Below, one piece after another: positions 45,335 through 52,913 of a stretch of DNA of 64,000 bases. Positions within the stretch are counted from its first letter, which is position 1; every line of letters starts with the position of its first letter. The notes beneath the pieces are model-generated. The model searched no databases and was not told where the DNA came from. It was given only the letters and a program-made list of their open reading frames with translations. A program made the translations under genes and the position numbers. Source of the DNA: Nocardia arthritidis. Its GTDB lineage: Bacteria; Actinomycetota; Actinomycetes; Mycobacteriales; Mycobacteriaceae. The DNA is taken from assembly GCF_011801145.1 (NCBI RefSeq), contig NZ_CP046172.1, positions 8,432,001-8,496,000 of the forward strand, in the 5' to 3' direction.

Positions 45335-46513
45335 GTGACGACCCCGATTCAGCTGCCGCTAGCAGGCGGAAATCCGCTGCGCCCGGCATCGGAACTACGA
45401 AATATGTTGAAAACAGGCGTGATTCATCGCGCCCGCACACCGGTCGGCGATCCGGCCTGGTTGGTCACCGGATACGCCGAGGTGCGGCGGCTGCTCGACG
45501 ACGACCGGCTCGGCCGCGCCCATCCCGAGCCGGAACGCGCGGCCCGCACCGGCGATTCGGCACTGTTCGGCGGCCCGCTCGGCAACTTCGACACCGAACG
45601 CGCCGACCACGCCAGAATGCGTGCGCTCATGCAGCCGCACTTCACGCCGCGGCGGGTGCGGGCGCTACAGTCGCGGGTCGACGCGCTCACCACCGAACTG
45701 CTCGACGCGCTCGCCGAATCCGGCCCACCCGCCGATCTCGTCGCGAAACTCGCACTGCCACTGCCGATCCTGGTGATCTGCGAACTGCTCGGCGTGCCGT
45801 ACGCCGATCGCGATCGCTTCCGGGGTTGGACACAGGACGCCGCGAACATTCGCGATCGCGGCGTCTCCGAACGCGGCATCGCCGAATTATTCGGCTATGG
45901 ACTGGAATTGGTGCGGCACAAGCGCGCGAACCCCGCCGACGACGTCATCTCGCGGCTGTGCGCCATGCCCGATGTCTCCGACGAGGAGGCCGCGATGACC
46001 GCTGTCGGGCTGCTGTTCGCCGGTCACGAGACCACCGTGGTCGAGATCGGTAACGGCGCCCTTCTGCTGTTGGCGAATCATGAACAGTGGCAGGCGCTTT
46101 CACAGAATCCAGCACTGCTGCCGAATGCCGTCGACGAGCTGCTGCGGGCCAGGACCGGCGGCGGCAGCGGCGGCATCCCCCGCTACGCCCGAGTGGATTT
46201 CGAGTTCGCGGGCGTCCAGATCCGCACCGGCGATCTGGTCCTGCTCGACACCCACTGCGCCAACCACGATCCCGCCGCCTTCCCCGACCCGGACCACACC
46301 GACATCACCCGAAATGCCGCACACCACCTAACCTTCGGCTACGGAGCCCACTATTGCCTCGGCGCCCCGCTCGCCCGCCTGGAGCTACGCAGCGTCTTCG
46401 CCCAACTCATCCCCCGCTTCCCGAACATGCGCCTGACCGTCGCCCCCCAAGACCTCACCGTCCGCGAAGACACCCTCACCGGCGGCCTGACCGAACTACC
46501 CGTCACCTGGTGA
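45335..46513 (+). CDS. Cytochrome P450
   Basis: A 392-residue class I bacterial P450. The I-helix oxygen motif AGHETT, the ExxR helix DELLR and the heme-binding loop FGYGAHYCLG with Cys341 as thiolate ligand are all present. It needs a ferredoxin and a reductase; none is adjacent, although fdxA lies elsewhere in the window. GTG start at 45335 with AGGAGG upstream. Controlled by the divergent TetR. Substrate unknown. Confidence 0.95.
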   Translation: MTTPIQLPLAGGNPLRPASELRNMLKTGVIHRARTPVGDPAWLVTGYAEVRRLLDDDRLGRAHPEPERAARTGDSALFGGPLGNFDTERADHARMRALMQPHFTPRRVRALQSRVDALTTELLDALAESGPPADLVAKLALPLPILVICELLGVPYADRDRFRGWTQDAANIRDRGVSERGIAELFGYGLELVRHKRANPADDVISRLCAMPDVSDEEAAMTAVGLLFAGHETTVVEIGNGALLLLANHEQWQALSQNPALLPNAVDELLRARTGGGSGGIPRYARVDFEFAGVQIRTGDLVLLDTHCANHDPAAFPDPDHTDITRNAAHHLTFGYGAHYCLGAPLARLELRSVFAQLIPRFPNMRLTVAPQDLTVREDTLTGGLTELPVTW

Positions 46514-46581: not shown

Positions 46582-46800
46582 ATGACAGATATCTTGATTC
46601 GGGATATCCCTGATTCGACAATCGAGGAGATCGATCGACGCGCAAAAGGGATGGGCGTATCGCGCACCGAATTCTTACGCCGGTGGCTCAGCAGGGATTT
46701 CCGTCCCGCAGTGCCGGTTACGGCCCGTGATCTCGGCCGCCTCGGCGCACTTGTGCAAGATCTCGACAACCCTGACGTCATGGGGAAGGCCTGGTCTTGA
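46582..46800 (+). CDS. VapB-type ribbon-helix-helix antitoxin (module 2)
   Basis: A 72-residue antitoxin. The N-terminal RHH domain ([20 protein letters not shown], with [11 protein letters not shown] as the second helix) is followed by a short toxin-binding tail. ATG 46582 lies 8 nt after AGGAGG; the GTG at 46573 would sit in the ribosome binding site and is rejected. The stop overlaps the toxin start (TTGA). Preceded by a perfect palindromic operator. Confidence 0.9.
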
Positions 46801-47216
46801 CCGCCCGCCCCTGGCTCATCGACAAATCGGCCCTGGTGCGACTCGGCCAATCTCCAGATGCCGAAGAATGGGCGGAGCGAATCGAACGTGGACTGGTCCG
46901 CATCGCGACTGTCACATTGTTGGAGGCTGGCTACTCCGCCAGGTCCGCCACAGACCTCACCGAATTGCTCGATCTTCCGCCACTCGCGCGCATGCCAGTG
47001 GAGTACATGACACCCACGGCGGAGGATCGGGCCGTCGATGTGCTCCGAATACTTGCCGAGCGAGGACACCATCGCGCACCGTCCATACCAGATCTGCTGA
47101 TTGCGGCGACAGCGGAGCAAGCCAAACTCGTTGTTCTCCACGCCGACAAGGACTTCGAGTTGATCGCCGGAGTCACCGGCCAACCGGTGGAATGGCTCCG
47201 GTTCGATAAGCGCTGA
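46797..47216 (+). CDS. VapC-type PIN-domain toxin (module 2)
   Basis: A 139-residue PIN ribonuclease. Acidic residues: Asp9 (WLIDKSA), Glu43 (LLEAGYS), Asp99 (SIPDLLIAA) and Asp117 (HADKDF). Starts at TTG 46797, overlapping the antitoxin stop. Its stop at 47214-47216 is followed within a few bases by the broken kinase sequence, so the module appears to have been joined to, or inserted into, the kinase gene. Confidence 0.93.
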
Positions 47217-48219: not shown

Positions 48220-49170
48220 TCAGATCCGGTCCTCGGCGCGGCGCGGTAACTCCGTGCCGCCCAGTGATTCTCCCGCTTCGACGGGCGCCTGCGGCTCGGC
48301 ACCCCGCCGATCCATCGCGTACTGAACCACCAGCGCCGCGAACACTATTGCCGCACCGAAGATCTGGTGCGGGTGCAGGACGTCGCCGCGAACGGTGATG
48401 CCGAGGATGACGGCGAAGATCGGCATCAGGTAGAAGGCCAGTCCTGCTTGCAGCGGGCCCACCGTCGCGATCAACCAGTAGTTGAGCAGGAACGCTACGG
48501 CCGTGCTGATGCCAAGGGCGACAAGGGAACCCACCACCGCCGGGGTGGCGTCGACCGGATGGCCGAGCTGCGGCGCCGCGACCACAAGCATCAGCACACC
48601 TGCGACCAGCGCCTGGGTGGCCGCCAGCGACACCTTCGAATAACCGAGATTGCTGATCAAATGTTTGGCGTAGGCATAGGCGATGGCGTAGCAGACGGCG
48701 CCGGCGAGGCAGGCGAGCTGGCCGAGCAGCGAGGACCGCGAGCCATCCGACCACGGCGCCATCAGCACGACGATACCGGCGAAGCCGAGCACCGACGCAG
48801 TGGTTTCACCGCGACTTCCCTTGTGCCGCAACAGCAACCAAACCACCGGTAGCGAGGCCAGCGGGGTGACGCTGTTGTAGATGCCCGCCATACTCACCGA
48901 AACCTGCTCCTGCCCCCAGGCGAACAGCAGCCACGGCAGCGCTTGGCCGAGCACCCCCATCACCAGCAGCCGCAACCAAATTCCCCAGCCGCGCGGCATC
49001 CGGCTGCGCAACACCAGGCAACATCCCAGCAGGATGGCCCCGCCCAGCCACAGTCGCGCCGCGACGATCTGGGCCGGGTCGGAGCCACCGAGGGCCACAT
49101 CGACCAGTAGGAAATTCGAACCCCAAATGGCCGCGAGCGCGATCAGAACAAGGCGGCCAACGGCTTGCAT
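48220..49170 (-). CDS. EamA/DMT-family transporter, last gene of the HDO cluster
   Basis: A 316-residue drug/metabolite exporter with 10 membrane segments in two EamA repeats; the first helix reads LIALAAIWGSNFLLVDVAL. ATG 49170 lies inside the 3' end of the upstream HDO-type gene (28-nt overlap), so it is co-translated with that cluster. It is a plausible exporter for the cluster's product. The C-terminal ~30 residues are polar and charged. Confidence 0.88.
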   Translation of the reverse strand: MQAVGRLVLIALAAIWGSNFLLVDVALGGSDPAQIVAARLWLGGAILLGCCLVLRSRMPRGWGIWLRLLVMGVLGQALPWLLFAWGQEQVSVSMAGIYNSVTPLASLPVVWLLLRHKGSRGETTASVLGFAGIVVLMAPWSDGSRSSLLGQLACLAGAVCYAIAYAYAKHLISNLGYSKVSLAATQALVAGVLMLVVAAPQLGHPVDATPAVVGSLVALGISTAVAFLLNYWLIATVGPLQAGLAFYLMPIFAVILGITVRGDVLHPHQIFGAAIVFAALVVQYAMDRRGAEPQAPVEAGESLGGTELPRRAEDRI

Positions 49171-50195
49171 GTCATCGTCTTTCCCGCGGCGACCGGATAC
49201 GCGTCGGCGGTGAAAATCCGCGGACCGCCCTCGGCGTACCAGGACATGATCTGGGCGTCCAGCCGGGCCCGGTGCTCGATGATGTCGACGACCACCTTCG
49301 CGCATTCGTTGCGTTCCTCGGCGCCGACGAAGGAGAATTGCGCGAGCAGATCCAGGCTGACCGCCTCGTGCTCCTCATCCTCGTTGACACCCGAATGCGC
49401 GGCGATCGGCCGCGAGAATTCCTCCGGCAGTTCATGTTCCCGGCAACGGGTGAGGAACAGCTCGAGGAAGTCCGGTTCCGGTTCCTCCATCGGGAACAGC
49501 GTGCTGAGAATGCCGAGCGGGAATTGATAGGCGAGCACGCCCATGGTGGCCATGATCGACATGGTCGCGGGCAGCGGCTGCATGCGAAGCAGATCGTCGC
49601 GGGTGATGCCGACGGCCTGCAACGACTTCTCCAGCATCCGGTCGTGGTTGCGTTCCATTTGGTAGAAGGCCATGAATTGCTGCCACACATCTATTCCGAT
49701 GTCGTCGCGCGCCAACAGCGGTGCGAGCGCGCGCGGGCACAGGTGGGTGACGTGCCAGTATTCGATGGCATATCCGATGATCTGATTCCTGGTGATCGCC
49801 CCGGAAATCATCGCCTCGGTGAACGGGCTGCGGATATTCGCGCGTGCGGCGTCCGCGGCGCGCTTGAGATGCCCGTACGCGCCGACACCCGTCGTACCGC
49901 CGTCCGGTTCGTCCCCGCCCGCGTCGATGAGCATGCCCTGCTCGTCCAGCGCGGCCAGCACATCGTCGAATTCGGCTCGGCTGCCCGGGAACCCGGCGGC
50001 GAGGTCGTCAGTGGTGTGCGTACCGGATTCGAGCAGCGCGAAGAACTTTCGCGACTCCTCGGCCCGGCCCTCCAGGTATTCGAGTTCGATCCAGCGCTTT
50101 CCGTCCAGATAGGAAAGCCGGATTCCGTCGGCCAATTCGCCGATTTCGACCTCGCGGCGCAGGGCCGGGCGCCGCAACAGTTCATGACCGGACAT
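49143..50195 (-). CDS. Heme-oxygenase-like (HDO-type) enzyme with RRE/winged-helix-like N-terminus, copy 2
   Basis: A 350-residue protein in two parts. Residues ~5-92 form a small beta/winged-helix domain like peptide-binding (RRE-like) domains. Residues ~110-335 form an all-helical heme-oxygenase-like domain of the iron-containing redox group (PqqC/TenA relatives). Candidate metal ligands are E145 and H148 (IEYWHVTH), E181 and H184 (QMERNHDR), H267 and H276 (HSGVNEDEEHEA). The same HxxVN...H block occurs in the upstream paralog. The ATG at 50195 overlaps that gene by 14 nt. The reaction is unknown; oxidative tailoring of a peptide is inferred. Confidence 0.75.
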   Translation of the reverse strand: MSGHELLRRPALRREVEIGELADGIRLSYLDGKRWIELEYLEGRAEESRKFFALLESGTHTTDDLAAGFPGSRAEFDDVLAALDEQGMLIDAGGDEPDGGTTGVGAYGHLKRAADAARANIRSPFTEAMISGAITRNQIIGYAIEYWHVTHLCPRALAPLLARDDIGIDVWQQFMAFYQMERNHDRMLEKSLQAVGITRDDLLRMQPLPATMSIMATMGVLAYQFPLGILSTLFPMEEPEPDFLELFLTRCREHELPEEFSRPIAAHSGVNEDEEHEAVSLDLLAQFSFVGAEERNECAKVVVDIIEHRARLDAQIMSWYAEGGPRIFTADAYPVAAGKTMTCKPLAALF

Positions 50196-51213
50196 CTGTC
50201 ACTCCCGAGGTTGTGCCGGTGCGGACCAGCGGCCGCGCCGAATCGCTGTAGTAGTCCAGGATTCCGTTGAAGAATTCCGCGTACGCCTCTACGAACAGAT
50301 GCGCCTTGCCCACCAGCCGGTCCTGCGTACCGACCGGCAGCGGCGGCAGCGCCGCGAAGAATTCCCGGCTGACGCTGCCGTGATCGTGGCTCGCGTTCAC
50401 CTTGGCATGCCTGCGCATCGGCTCGACGAAATGCGGTGCGATACCGGCGATTCCGCAGGCGCGCAGGAACGAGTCGTAGTTGGCGCCCTCGCCCTCGGCC
50501 TTTTCCAGCCTGCCCTCCAGAATGCCGATGGTGGCGATGAAGAACAGCGGGTCGGTGCGCGCCCACCACGACAGCAGTTTGATCAGGCCCGACGTTGTCG
50601 GCAGCGGCCGGGCCGCGACCAGGGCCTGTCTGGTGATGCCGAGGTTCTCGAAGGCCTGGACGACGATATCGTCGTGCCGGTGTTCCTCGTGGTAGAAGTC
50701 GTTGGCCATGGAGCGAATGGCATCGCTGGTCGGGTAGGCCAGTATCGCCGAGTCGAATTCGCATTCCCGGGACAGGAAGAACCAATTCTCCAGGCCGAAT
50801 CCGTAATACACGTGTGGATCGACCTGTTCGGGCTTGTCGAGTATCGCCTCCCAGAATGGGCCCGCGAAAACCAACTCCTCCAGCAGCCGATTCACCACGT
50901 GTTCGACGGCGCCGAGCACCACGAGCGCGGATTCGGTGGCGGGCGTCGAGCGATCGTCGAGCAATCCAGAGATCTGCGCAGGCAGCAGCACCGTGGCCAG
51001 TTTGTCCTCGGGCAGGCCACTGCGCGCCGAGATCTCGGCGATGGAGGCGGATCCGTCGGCCGCGCGCAATACCGTGCCGAGTTGTTCGGCGGTCACGCCC
51101 TCATCCGGTTCGACCTCGAATGTCACCTCCCCGCAACGTAATTCGAAGGTACCGGGAACCGCCTCCGACACCTCCGCCAGGAGGTGGGGCTTGATGGGGA
51201 TGGTTCGGGTCAC
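50182..51213 (-). CDS. Heme-oxygenase-like (HDO-type) enzyme with RRE/winged-helix-like N-terminus, copy 1
   Basis: A 343-residue paralog of the next gene. Residues ~5-88 (VPGTFELRCGEVTFEVEP, then a winged helix) look like a leader-peptide-recognition domain. Residues ~95-320 are an all-helical heme-oxygenase-like domain. Candidate iron ligands: E142 (LENWFF), H175, E176 and H178 (YHEEHRHDD), E233, H269 and H278 (HAKVNASHDHG). GTG start at 51213 overlaps the stop of a 7-codon frame (GTGA). It lies 75 nt downstream of the 17-codon peptide gene. The family resemblance is firm at fold level; the function is inference. Confidence 0.75.
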   Translation of the reverse strand: MTRTIPIKPHLLAEVSEAVPGTFELRCGEVTFEVEPDEGVTAEQLGTVLRAADGSASIAEISARSGLPEDKLATVLLPAQISGLLDDRSTPATESALVVLGAVEHVVNRLLEELVFAGPFWEAILDKPEQVDPHVYYGFGLENWFFLSRECEFDSAILAYPTSDAIRSMANDFYHEEHRHDDIVVQAFENLGITRQALVAARPLPTTSGLIKLLSWWARTDPLFFIATIGILEGRLEKAEGEGANYDSFLRACGIAGIAPHFVEPMRRHAKVNASHDHGSVSREFFAALPPLPVGTQDRLVGKAHLFVEAYAEFFNGILDYYSDSARPLVRTGTTSGVTDVRS

Positions 51214-51233
51214 CGCGCCGTCCAACCTTTCAT
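51210..51233 (-). other. Seven-codon reading frame coupled to HDO copy 1
   Basis: ATG at 51233 followed by codons for MKGWTAR and a TGA that shares bases with the GTG start of the HDO gene. No clear ribosome binding site precedes it. It could be a coupling minicistron or chance. Confidence 0.25.
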
Positions 51234-51248
51234 GAGAATTCAGGGAGG

Positions 51249-51276
51249 GTGGGGCGCCCCCGCCGGGCCGCCCCAC
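51249..51276 (-). terminator. GC-rich hairpin between peptide ORF and enzymes (possible attenuator)
   Basis: GTGGGGCG and CGCCCCAC form an 8-bp GC stem with a 12-nt loop, 13 nt after the stop of the 17-codon frame. It has no T-run, so partial read-through into the enzyme genes is expected. Such a layout is common behind RiPP precursor genes. Confidence 0.45.
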
Positions 51277-51288
51277 GTCGCTGCCGGA

Positions 51289-51342
51289 TCACAGATGAAC
51301 CGCGGTCAGCGCGACAACTTTCGAAGTACGACGGATTTTCAT
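51289..51342 (-). CDS. Candidate 17-residue precursor peptide
   Basis: ATG 51342 to TGA 51289 encodes MKIRRTSKVVALTAVHL. GGGAGGT lies immediately upstream at good spacing, one of the best ribosome binding sites in the window. The peptide has a basic N-terminus and a hydrophobic C-terminus ending Val-His-Leu. It precedes two enzymes with RRE-like domains and an exporter, all on the same strand, which is why it is read as a possible RiPP precursor. An alternative is a leader peptide for translational attenuation. Confidence 0.5.
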   Translation of the reverse strand: MKIRRTSKVVALTAVHL

Positions 51343-51995
51343 GACACCTCCCCTCGGGGAACACGCACAGCGCCAACCACTCGATGCTGACGCCGAGCGG
51401 CCAACGAATAGTCCGATGACCGGACCTTCCGAGCATAAACGAAGCATCATCGACTGGTCATCGAATTTGGTTGAGGCAGTTGGATTTTGGCGAAACCCCG
51501 AGACAAACGTTTTGGGGGCAGGACATTTCGCGCAATTACCCGGCGAGGAAGCCGACGATACGGTATGCAGTATCCAATTACGTTGACTCGCTGCACATTT
51601 CGTCAAGATTCCGAGCCATTGGACCGAGCCGAACCGCGCAATCTGCGAAGAAATCGACCAAACAGTATGGCAATGCCGAGGTCGAGCCGCGCCGCGGGGG
51701 CCGATCACGAGGCCGACTTGTTGATACGCACGTACCAGCTACATGGTGCTGTCGTATCACCACCGGCCGACGCCGGAACAAATCCGGGACTCGGGCACGA
51801 TTCGCCGCATGCGGTCTCGGAACTGGTCATACTCCACTTGCCTCGGTTCACCGGAAATGACCATCCAGTACCGGTGCAAAACAGCCCATCCACCCGGAAT
51901 CCGGGGCATAGGATTGAACTCGGTTGGGTTTTGCCCGGAAAGTTGTTGGGTACCAACTGTTTGGGATGTATCGCCCCGGGCCAATGGAGGCTGCG
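51343..51995. other. 653-nt gene-free, lower-GC intergenic region
   Basis: No convincing gene. It must hold the leftward promoter of the peptide/HDO cluster and the rightward promoter of the lysin gene. A direct repeat TCATCGA at 51447-51453 and 51458-51464 (11-nt step), and a TATGCT -10-like hexamer on the minus strand near 51432-51437, are the only signals noted. Two open frames across it (51289-51708 minus and 51487-51999 plus) have atypical composition and no ribosome binding site. Confidence 0.6.
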
Positions 51996-52913
51996 ATGAC
52001 CGACACCCTGTTCGCCGATGTCAGCTACTACCAACCTCCGGTCGACGACTCCTACCCGTACGAGGTCTTCAGCTTCCGCTCCAACGACGGCACCTTCCAG
52101 GACCCCAACTTCGCCGCCAATTACCACTGGTCCACCAGCGCAGTCGATTCCGGGCGGCTGGCCTTCTTCATCGTCTATCTCTACCTGCGCCCGAACTGGC
52201 TCGACACCGTCAACACGCACCGGAGCATGGTGAGCGCGCTCGGCGGCCCGCATCCGAAGATGGTCGCGATGCTCGATGTGGAATCCGGCGGCAATCCGCC
52301 CGGCGACGGCTCCGACTGGATCAACCGCTCGTACTGGAATCTCGCCGACTGGCTCGGCAACCCGGAGCGGGTGATCGGATACGCCAACCCGACCGATTTC
52401 TACAACATGTGGCCCGTCCGCCCCGACGGACTGCGGGTCGTCGCCGCCGGGTACGGCTACAACCCGGACCTGCCCGGAAAGATCGCGCACCAGTACACCG
52501 ATGGCAACGGCTACGGTGGCGGCCTGCCCGAGGGCTGTCCGCCGTTCGGCAACTGCGATATGAATTCCGCCGACGGCCTGGACGCTCACCAATTCGCCGC
52601 GGCATGCGGCGTAGGGTCGCCAGCACCCGAACCCACCTTGACCCAGGCCGATATCGATGCCATCGCCGAGGCCGTCGCGGGAAAGATGTTGACGCCCAAG
52701 TGGTTCGCCGAATTCATGGTCAGCTACATCGGGCCGATGGGCTCCGATGCCAAGGATATCCGCGAACAGCTCCTCGGCGGCCGCAACACGGGCGAGAACG
52801 ACGGCTATCCGCAGGGCGGATTCCGCACACTGTACGACCTCGTCGCCGCGATCGCGGCGCATACCGGCGTGCCCGAAACCACCGACATCAAAGCCGGGCC
52901 GGAATCGGTCTGA
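51996..52913 (+). CDS. Phage-type lysin, GH25/DUF1906-like glycosidase
   Basis: A 305-residue protein. Residues ~1-215 are a GH25-like lysozyme barrel: FADVSYYQPP at the first strand (Asp8), MVAMLDVESGG as the acidic strand, and VIGYANPTDF and AHQYTDG later. A linker leads to a ~70-residue C-terminal helical segment. There is no signal peptide, as in phage endolysins. GGAGG precedes ATG 51996. No holin, integrase or other phage gene is nearby, so it is an orphan domesticated or remnant lysin. Confidence 0.75.
   Translation: MTDTLFADVSYYQPPVDDSYPYEVFSFRSNDGTFQDPNFAANYHWSTSAVDSGRLAFFIVYLYLRPNWLDTVNTHRSMVSALGGPHPKMVAMLDVESGGNPPGDGSDWINRSYWNLADWLGNPERVIGYANPTDFYNMWPVRPDGLRVVAAGYGYNPDLPGKIAHQYTDGNGYGGGLPEGCPPFGNCDMNSADGLDAHQFAAACGVGSPAPEPTLTQADIDAIAEAVAGKMLTPKWFAEFMVSYIGPMGSDAKDIREQLLGGRNTGENDGYPQGGFRTLYDLVAAIAAHTGVPETTDIKAGPESV

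Follow-up and report, generated by a model that had tools for sequence, protein, structure and literature searches.

A 17-residue peptide gene beside two RRE-like/HDO-fold enzymes in Nocardia arthritidis: a candidate ribosomal peptide pathway

The closest described systems and the Nocardia locus

The nearest described systems to the locus examined here are VarO of the thiovarsolin cluster (PMC6511847) and MboA, the mangotoxin acetylenase (PMC13185094). VarO is a heme oxygenase-like protein proposed to put a double bond into an Arg side chain, with unclear timing (PMC6511847), and MboA is a heme oxygenase-like diiron oxidase (HDO) whose short peptide substrate is altered at its C-terminal residue (PMC13185094). 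About a dozen members of the HDO-fold oxidase superfamily have been validated (PMC13108848 section 4). We analyzed a 64,000-nucleotide stretch of Nocardia arthritidis DNA (hereafter the window; contig NZ_CP046172.1, positions 8,432,001 to 8,496,000), taken from a 10.0-Mb genome in a single contig, in which a 17-codon frame stands ahead of two enzyme genes, E1 and E2, and an EamA-family transporter gene, all on one strand (Table 1). With a probability of roughly 80%, we consider that these four genes make a small natural product by a pathway of the type known for ribosomally synthesized and post-translationally modified peptides (RiPPs), in which E1 and E2 would oxidize the C-terminal Val-His-Leu (VHL) of the peptide and the small product would be exported. 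The 17-residue peptide probably gives rise to a ribosomal peptide natural product of a kind not yet described.

VarO resembles E1 and E2 in that a heme oxygenase-like protein is proposed to act on a ribosomal peptide product (PMC6511847). However, the thiovarsolin cluster needs YcaO, TfuA, and a repeating precursor (PMC6511847), whereas the operon in the window holds only E1, E2, and EamA after its 17-residue precursor, with no YcaO and no TfuA among its reading frames and family matches, and so falls outside the thioamidated RiPPs, which are recognized by these two proteins. The HDO-fold enzymes of the window also differ from VarO in being a pair with N-terminal domains that resemble the RiPP recognition element (RRE). 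The likeness to MboA lies in an HDO acting at the C-terminus of a short peptide, and the MboA ligand spacing, E-x2-H, E, and H-x3-D-x4-H, agrees with E1 and E2 at five of six positions; the MboA substrate, however, is a non-ribosomal tripeptide made by ATP-grasp ligases, and Asp176 of MboA corresponds to Asn in E1 and E2 (PMC13185094).

Two further comparisons concern the pyrroloquinoline quinone (PQQ) pathway and the MNIO (DUF692) RiPPs. In the PQQ pathway, an HDO-fold enzyme and an RRE-type protein likewise take part in making a small molecule from a short ribosomal precursor; PqqC is not known to use a metal. The window operon differs from it in having no radical S-adenosylmethionine enzyme and in the fusion of the RRE-like domain to the oxidase. 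The MNIO enzymes belong to another superfamily than the HDOs and have another fold. They are similar in that iron oxidases modify ribosomal peptides (PMC13419390). A further difference of the PQQ pathway is that PqqC works after proteolysis of the leader (PMC11002830). In the open-licence papers of PubMed Central up to August 2026, we found no description of this peptide or gene set, in agreement with an earlier reading of the DNA letters alone (hereafter the sequence-only reading); this scope did not extend to papers behind subscription or to supplements such as the PMC12710340 list of RRE-fused Pfam domains, and we therefore make no claim of priority.

The putative precursor peptide and its two enzymes

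Relatives of E1 and E2 were sought in several overlapping samples, and after identical loci were merged, 16 distinct genomes or records remained. Matches came from 6 of 198 related genomes and 2 of 394 genomes of the class sample (the N. arthritidis genome included in both), from 4 of 345 genomes in the order of an Actinomadura genome, and from the family to which a Saccharothrix genome belongs (2 of 390 genomes); six loci were obtained from a genome-contig scan and three from plasmid records. When the phylum sample was searched with query A5, a match was found in one of 296 genomes (G207, already among the loci), and a scan of viral contigs with the same query gave no relative.

In all 16 loci, which belong to Actinomycetota and Pseudomonadota, a frame ending in VHL and a stop codon was found upstream of the enzyme pair. 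The check set by the sequence-only reading, whether a short frame always precedes the pair, thus came out positive in every related locus found as regards the VHL ending but not as regards length: the exact 17-codon frame occurred in 12 of the 16 loci, and the longer frames of the four others (27, 35, 55, and 58 residues), all distant, indicate that the 17-mer is not universal. The distance from the peptide to the start of E1 was 75–113 nucleotides in 13 of the 16 loci; in Tistrella, G207, and G176 the peptide was 1,879, 2,231, and 2,337 nucleotides ahead of E1, respectively, with the gene of a thiamine pyrophosphate (TPP) enzyme between them.

The peptide sequence MKIRRTSKVVALTAVHL was identical in five Nocardia copies, among which 9 of the 16 post-start codons varied and every change was synonymous; to judge from these codons, the peptide appears to be under purifying selection. 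The 17-mer was MRIKRRKKVPSLSAVHL in Actinomadura, MRIKRRAKVTALSAVHL in Saccharothrix, G888, and G891, MKIKRRSKVVALSGVHL in Actinoallomurus, and MTITKKKRTIVAVAVHL on the Rhodococcus gordoniae plasmid, and in G1223 it began with GTG and ended in VAVAVHL. Positions 3, 8, 9, 15, 16, and 17 were invariant in eleven of the 17-mers, and the Rhodococcus 17-mer deviated at positions 8 and 9. Among the longer frames, whose start codons were picked by their ribosome binding sites, those of Robbsia (27 residues) and G207 (35) ended in VLIPVHL and VLISVHL, respectively, and those of Tistrella (55) and G176 (58) both ended in VLIAVHL. A purine-rich ribosome binding site stood ahead of the 17-codon relatives, including that of L101. 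When both strands of the window and 57 background loci were searched for VHL before a stop codon (489,408 strand-bases), the window peptide itself was the single occurrence. The locus thus has one of the features by which RiPP biosynthesis is recognized, a conserved gene-encoded putative precursor linked to candidate modifying enzymes. The Rhodococcus and Robbsia plasmid records list no gene at the peptide, and the gene table is incomplete by design. A plasmid search with the peptide also gave three Escherichia coli matches besides Robbsia; neither of the two inspected ended in VHL, and they look like chance.

Both enzymes were modeled with AlphaFold2 (mean pLDDT 91.1 for E1 and 86.6 for E2), and in these models the C-terminal domains have the seven-helix heme oxygenase-like fold that had been proposed from the letters. 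Family searches were less informative: E2 matched Haem_oxygenas_2 at 1.4e-7 and E1 weakly matched TENA_THI-4, so that Pfam and NCBIfam, with their weak or generic matches, name a function for neither enzyme. The metal ligands of MboA are Glu86, His89, Glu143, His172, Asp176, and His181 (PMC13185094 section 10), and the set of three His and three carboxylates is used by the majority of HDOs (PMC13108848). Matched by spacing and not by coordinates, the corresponding residues are E177, H180, E233, H269, N273, and H278 in E1 and E181, H184, E237, H267, N271, and H276 in E2. In 11 of the 16 loci, the sequences of E1, E2, and another protein of some loci, E3, were checked for the pattern E-x2-H...E...H-x3-N-x4-H, and all 26 had it. 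In wider alignments, the complete pattern was seen in 41 of the 43 A1 rows and in 35 of the 36 A2 rows, and the Asn in all 43 A1 rows and in 35 of the 36 A2 rows. A1 consists of the window E1 and 42 of 51 E1 homologues (omitting P0001, its own copy, and P0004, P0014, P0029, P0030, P0033, P0040, P0045, and P0049), and A2 of the window E2 and 35 of 36 E2 homologues (its own copy omitted). The claim that the ligands are kept therefore holds for five of the six canonical positions, but the Asp of H-x3-D-x4-H is Asn, which makes these proteins HDO-fold enzymes with a variant ligand set and not canonical HDOs.

In an RRE fold, three strands are followed by three helices (PMC12710340), and this order was found in the modeled N-termini of both E1 and E2, as the sequence-only reading had anticipated. 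The profile evidence was less clear. With hhalign, comparison to PqqD gave a moderate 72.9 for E1 and 81.8 for E2, across 76 and 72 columns, the profiles being built from 41 of 43 rows for the E1 N-terminus, 23 of 27 PqqD matches, and 20 of 30 fetched loci for the MarR control. When the N-terminal profiles were compared by sequence with PDB entries, the matches were generic winged helices and, for E2, also a weak full-length match to PbtF, and were not decisive. No RRE structure appeared among the structural matches of the E1 and E2 models, each searched as a whole; since these match lists were filled by the HDO domain, the absence is uninformative either way. Taken together, a peptide whose C-terminus is fixed while its N-terminus varies and can be extended, oxidases that carry RRE-like domains, and an exporter have the anatomy of a RiPP pathway.

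Neighboring genes and the wider family

The arrangement reported by the sequence-only reading, namely a 17-codon frame with a good ribosome binding site, overlapping downstream genes, and two paralogous enzymes, was confirmed in its coordinates, overlaps, and peptide (Table 1), and E1 and E2 are 24% identical across 152 residues. No redox-partner gene was seen in the operon. Outside it, a cytochrome P450 gene (PF00067) lies on the opposite strand at 45335–46513, about 2 kb past the EamA end of the operon; a PIN-domain protein (PF01850, E 5e-12) at 46797–47216 resembles the VapC-type toxin of a toxin–antitoxin pair; and a 329-residue plus-strand frame at 51924–52913, with no Pfam match at 0.01, adjoins the operon.

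Table 1. Features of the peptide operon, in window positions
Feature	Position	Strand	Remarks
GGGGAGG, Shine-Dalgarno site ahead of the peptide gene	51347..51353	-	4-nt spacer to ATG
Putative precursor peptide gene, MKIRRTSKVVALTAVHL, 17 codons	51289..51342	-	ATG 51342-51340, stop 51291-51289; VHL-ending relative in 16/16 loci
GC-rich hairpin 3' of the peptide stop codon, no U-run	about 51249..51276	-	Folding; a hairpin of differing sequence in 11 core loci
E1, GTG start; RRE-like domain (about residues 1-90) and HDO-fold domain (about 94-330)	50182..51213	-	
E2, paralogue of E1; RRE-like and HDO-fold domains	49143..50195	-	14-nt overlap with E1
EamA-family transporter, presumed exporter	48220..49170	-	PF00892, E 5.7e-34; 28-nt overlap with E2

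A related EamA gene follows E2 in ten loci (the window, L003, L004, L005, L027, L006, L007, L008, L041, and L042). With one annotated in Robbsia (L103), EamA reaches 11 of the 16 loci, the exporter count covering every locus but Tistrella. In Rhodococcus its place is taken by an MFS transporter (1 of 16), and the EamA query gave no match in L040, L025, or L026. EamA would thus be the usual but not the sole exporter type, its export role being presumed. A GNAT gene was found in 6 of the 16 loci, as a following gene in L006, L007, L041, and L042 and also in Rhodococcus and Robbsia; the same query found none in the window.

The distant loci are larger. In G207, G176, and Tistrella, a TPP enzyme accompanies an E3 of 505–532 residues, and Robbsia has an E3 of 496 residues and a class-III aminotransferase. 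E3 matched Haem_oxygenas_2 in three of these four loci; the Tistrella E3 had no Pfam match at 0.01 but matched the Robbsia E3 (30% over 58%) and kept the ligand pattern. On plasmid pTM3 of Tistrella mobilis (L102:7933-10008), whose record in the collection is unannotated, E1 and E2 form a single 691-residue protein, and this fusion suggests that E1 and E2 act as a complex. Plasmid p4 of Robbsia andropogonis (L103:7798-15214) carries the unlisted 27-residue VHL frame followed by E1, E2, E3, the aminotransferase, EamA, and GNAT; a transposase gene lies close by. In the G176 locus (L026:1-5311), a small frame and then a long frame that by reading, with no family search, is like a non-ribosomal peptide synthetase lie downstream on the same strand, and in the G207 locus (L025:9591-11573) a 660-residue protein with no Pfam match at 0.1 follows.

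In a tree of 25 of the 26 sequences (L040_E2 omitted), E1, E2, and E3 each formed one group, with support of 97/99, 100/99, and 100/100, respectively, and the 17-mer loci clustered together both among the E1 sequences (7 rows) and among the E2 sequences (6 rows), each time at 100/100; the root is for drawing only, the E3 rows have long branches, and four rows have odd composition. The combination of a short precursor and two enzymes is thus a single branch within a wider family, whose other members seen have longer precursors and E3. When distant E1 sequences were used as a profile, 287 proteins matched at E up to 1e-20, and these may include E2 and E3. Among the matches listed (the best 120 of the 287) were proteins of Paraburkholderia, Chromobacterium, Sorangium, Enterovibrio, and Legionellales, judged by protein matches alone and not by neighborhoods.

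Proposed pathway and alternative explanations

The pathway that we propose is built on the conservation of the peptide, its linkage to the enzymes, the modeled enzyme folds, the ligand pattern, and the E1–E2 fusion of one species. The 17-mer would be the precursor, with a basic N-terminal part for recognition and a C-terminal Ala-Val-His-Leu that is altered. The RRE-like domains of E1 and E2 would hold the peptide while the paired HDO-fold domains oxidize its C-terminal residues with O2. In five substrate-bound HDO structures named by a 2026 review, the substrate is bound directly to Fe1 (PMC13108848), and in MboA it is the C-terminal carboxylate of the peptide that binds Fe1, the enzyme acting on the C-terminal residue (PMC13185094); on these grounds, we propose that E1 and E2 oxidize Leu and/or His at the peptide C-terminus. 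The carboxylate would probably, by analogy with MboA, sit on iron and place Leu and/or His for desaturation or oxidation. The leader would then be trimmed by host peptidases and the modified, small product exported by EamA, as the sequence-only reading had suggested for the peptide, and GNAT may acylate the product in some relatives. GNAT and EamA would fit a small amino-containing product, and a carbonyl intermediate would account for the TPP enzyme and aminotransferase seen in distant loci.

Several observations weigh against this pathway. Seventeen residues are very short to hold a separate leader and core, and the reading frames and family matches of the window operon include no peptidase gene. 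The Asn in place of the Asp ligand means that the metal site may be unusual, to judge by the residues, and the full pattern is missing in two of the 43 A1 rows and one of the 36 A2 rows. An E1 homologue of Streptosporangium saharense outside A1 (P0045) has lost parts of the ligand pattern and is perhaps a decaying copy. The E1 N-terminus scored 89.8 against the MarR control (46 columns, helices alone), above its own value for PqqD, and its PDB profile matches were mostly ordinary winged helices; PqqD itself, however, gave 86.6 against MarR, and the hhalign test therefore discriminates poorly. The sequence-only reading had specified that an unconserved frame, or N-termini of a non-RRE fold together with absent ligands, would refute a RiPP locus; both points came out favorably and support this reading.

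These winged-helix similarities would also suit a different function, in which the N-terminal domains bind DNA and E1 and E2 are regulatory sensors, not biosynthetic enzymes. We consider this very improbable, because in either model the helices come after three strands, E2 gave only 12.5 against MarR, far from its value for PqqD, and the oxidase ligand pattern is retained in all 26 enzymes checked. The short frame could otherwise be a regulatory leader peptide, at which ribosome stalling controls the operon with the hairpin as attenuator, while E1 and E2 act on another substrate. C-terminal conservation is also seen in arrest peptides, and a strong ribosome binding site, a short frame, and a GC hairpin ahead of the first enzyme gene agree with this idea. 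The hairpin directly follows the stop codon in 11 core loci, with a sequence that differs among them; when nine sequences standing for these loci were folded (near-copies omitted), it was strong in the five from outside Nocardia (z -3.05 to -5.79), a further point for a leader peptide, and weak in the four from Nocardia (z -0.95 to -2.40). In the window, the hairpin noted by the sequence-only reading is present but weak by itself (z -1.26, with equally good folding in 25 of 200 shuffles). It has no U-run, and by reading there is no run of one regulatory codon and the main hairpin does not include the ribosome binding site of E1, so that the features of a ribosome-mediated attenuator with codon run and terminator are wanting, other modes of attenuation being conceivable. 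Moreover, the frame is extended in four distant loci, in three of which the next enzyme gene is that of the TPP enzyme and not E1, and the enzymes carry RRE-like domains. A leader peptide thus seems unlikely to us, and between a precursor and its enzymes the hairpin would perhaps be a partial terminator or a stabilizer of the mRNA.

The oxidation of a free small molecule by E1 and E2, with the peptide as a separate small protein such as an activator or subunit of the enzymes, would agree with the fatty or amino acids mostly used by characterized HDOs (PMC13108848 section 4), with EamA and GNAT, which would suit a small amino compound, and with the TPP enzyme or class-III aminotransferase of distant loci. 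This is, in our view, slightly less likely again than a leader peptide, as both oxidases carry an RRE-like domain, a fixed C-terminus with N-terminal length variation resembles a precursor, and a free C-terminal carboxylate agrees with the peptide binding of MboA.

We judge it somewhat more probable than even that the loci represent a new RiPP class found in two phyla, in which the only core modifying enzymes would be RRE-fused oxidases of the HDO fold, two of them or in some branches three, with Asn substituted in the metal site. From the Val-His-Leu C-terminus of a precursor of 17 or more residues, these would make a small metabolite that is exported, and the TPP enzyme or aminotransferase of some branches would act on a carbonyl derived from the oxidation. 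If this is true, a RiPP class built on HDO-fold oxidases would be added to those known. Precursors so small are easily overlooked, and the common VHL terminus offers a handle with which to search for the family. Two enzymes and 17 residues are also few enough to be rebuilt in vitro, so that a possibly new chemistry at the peptide C-terminus would be directly testable.

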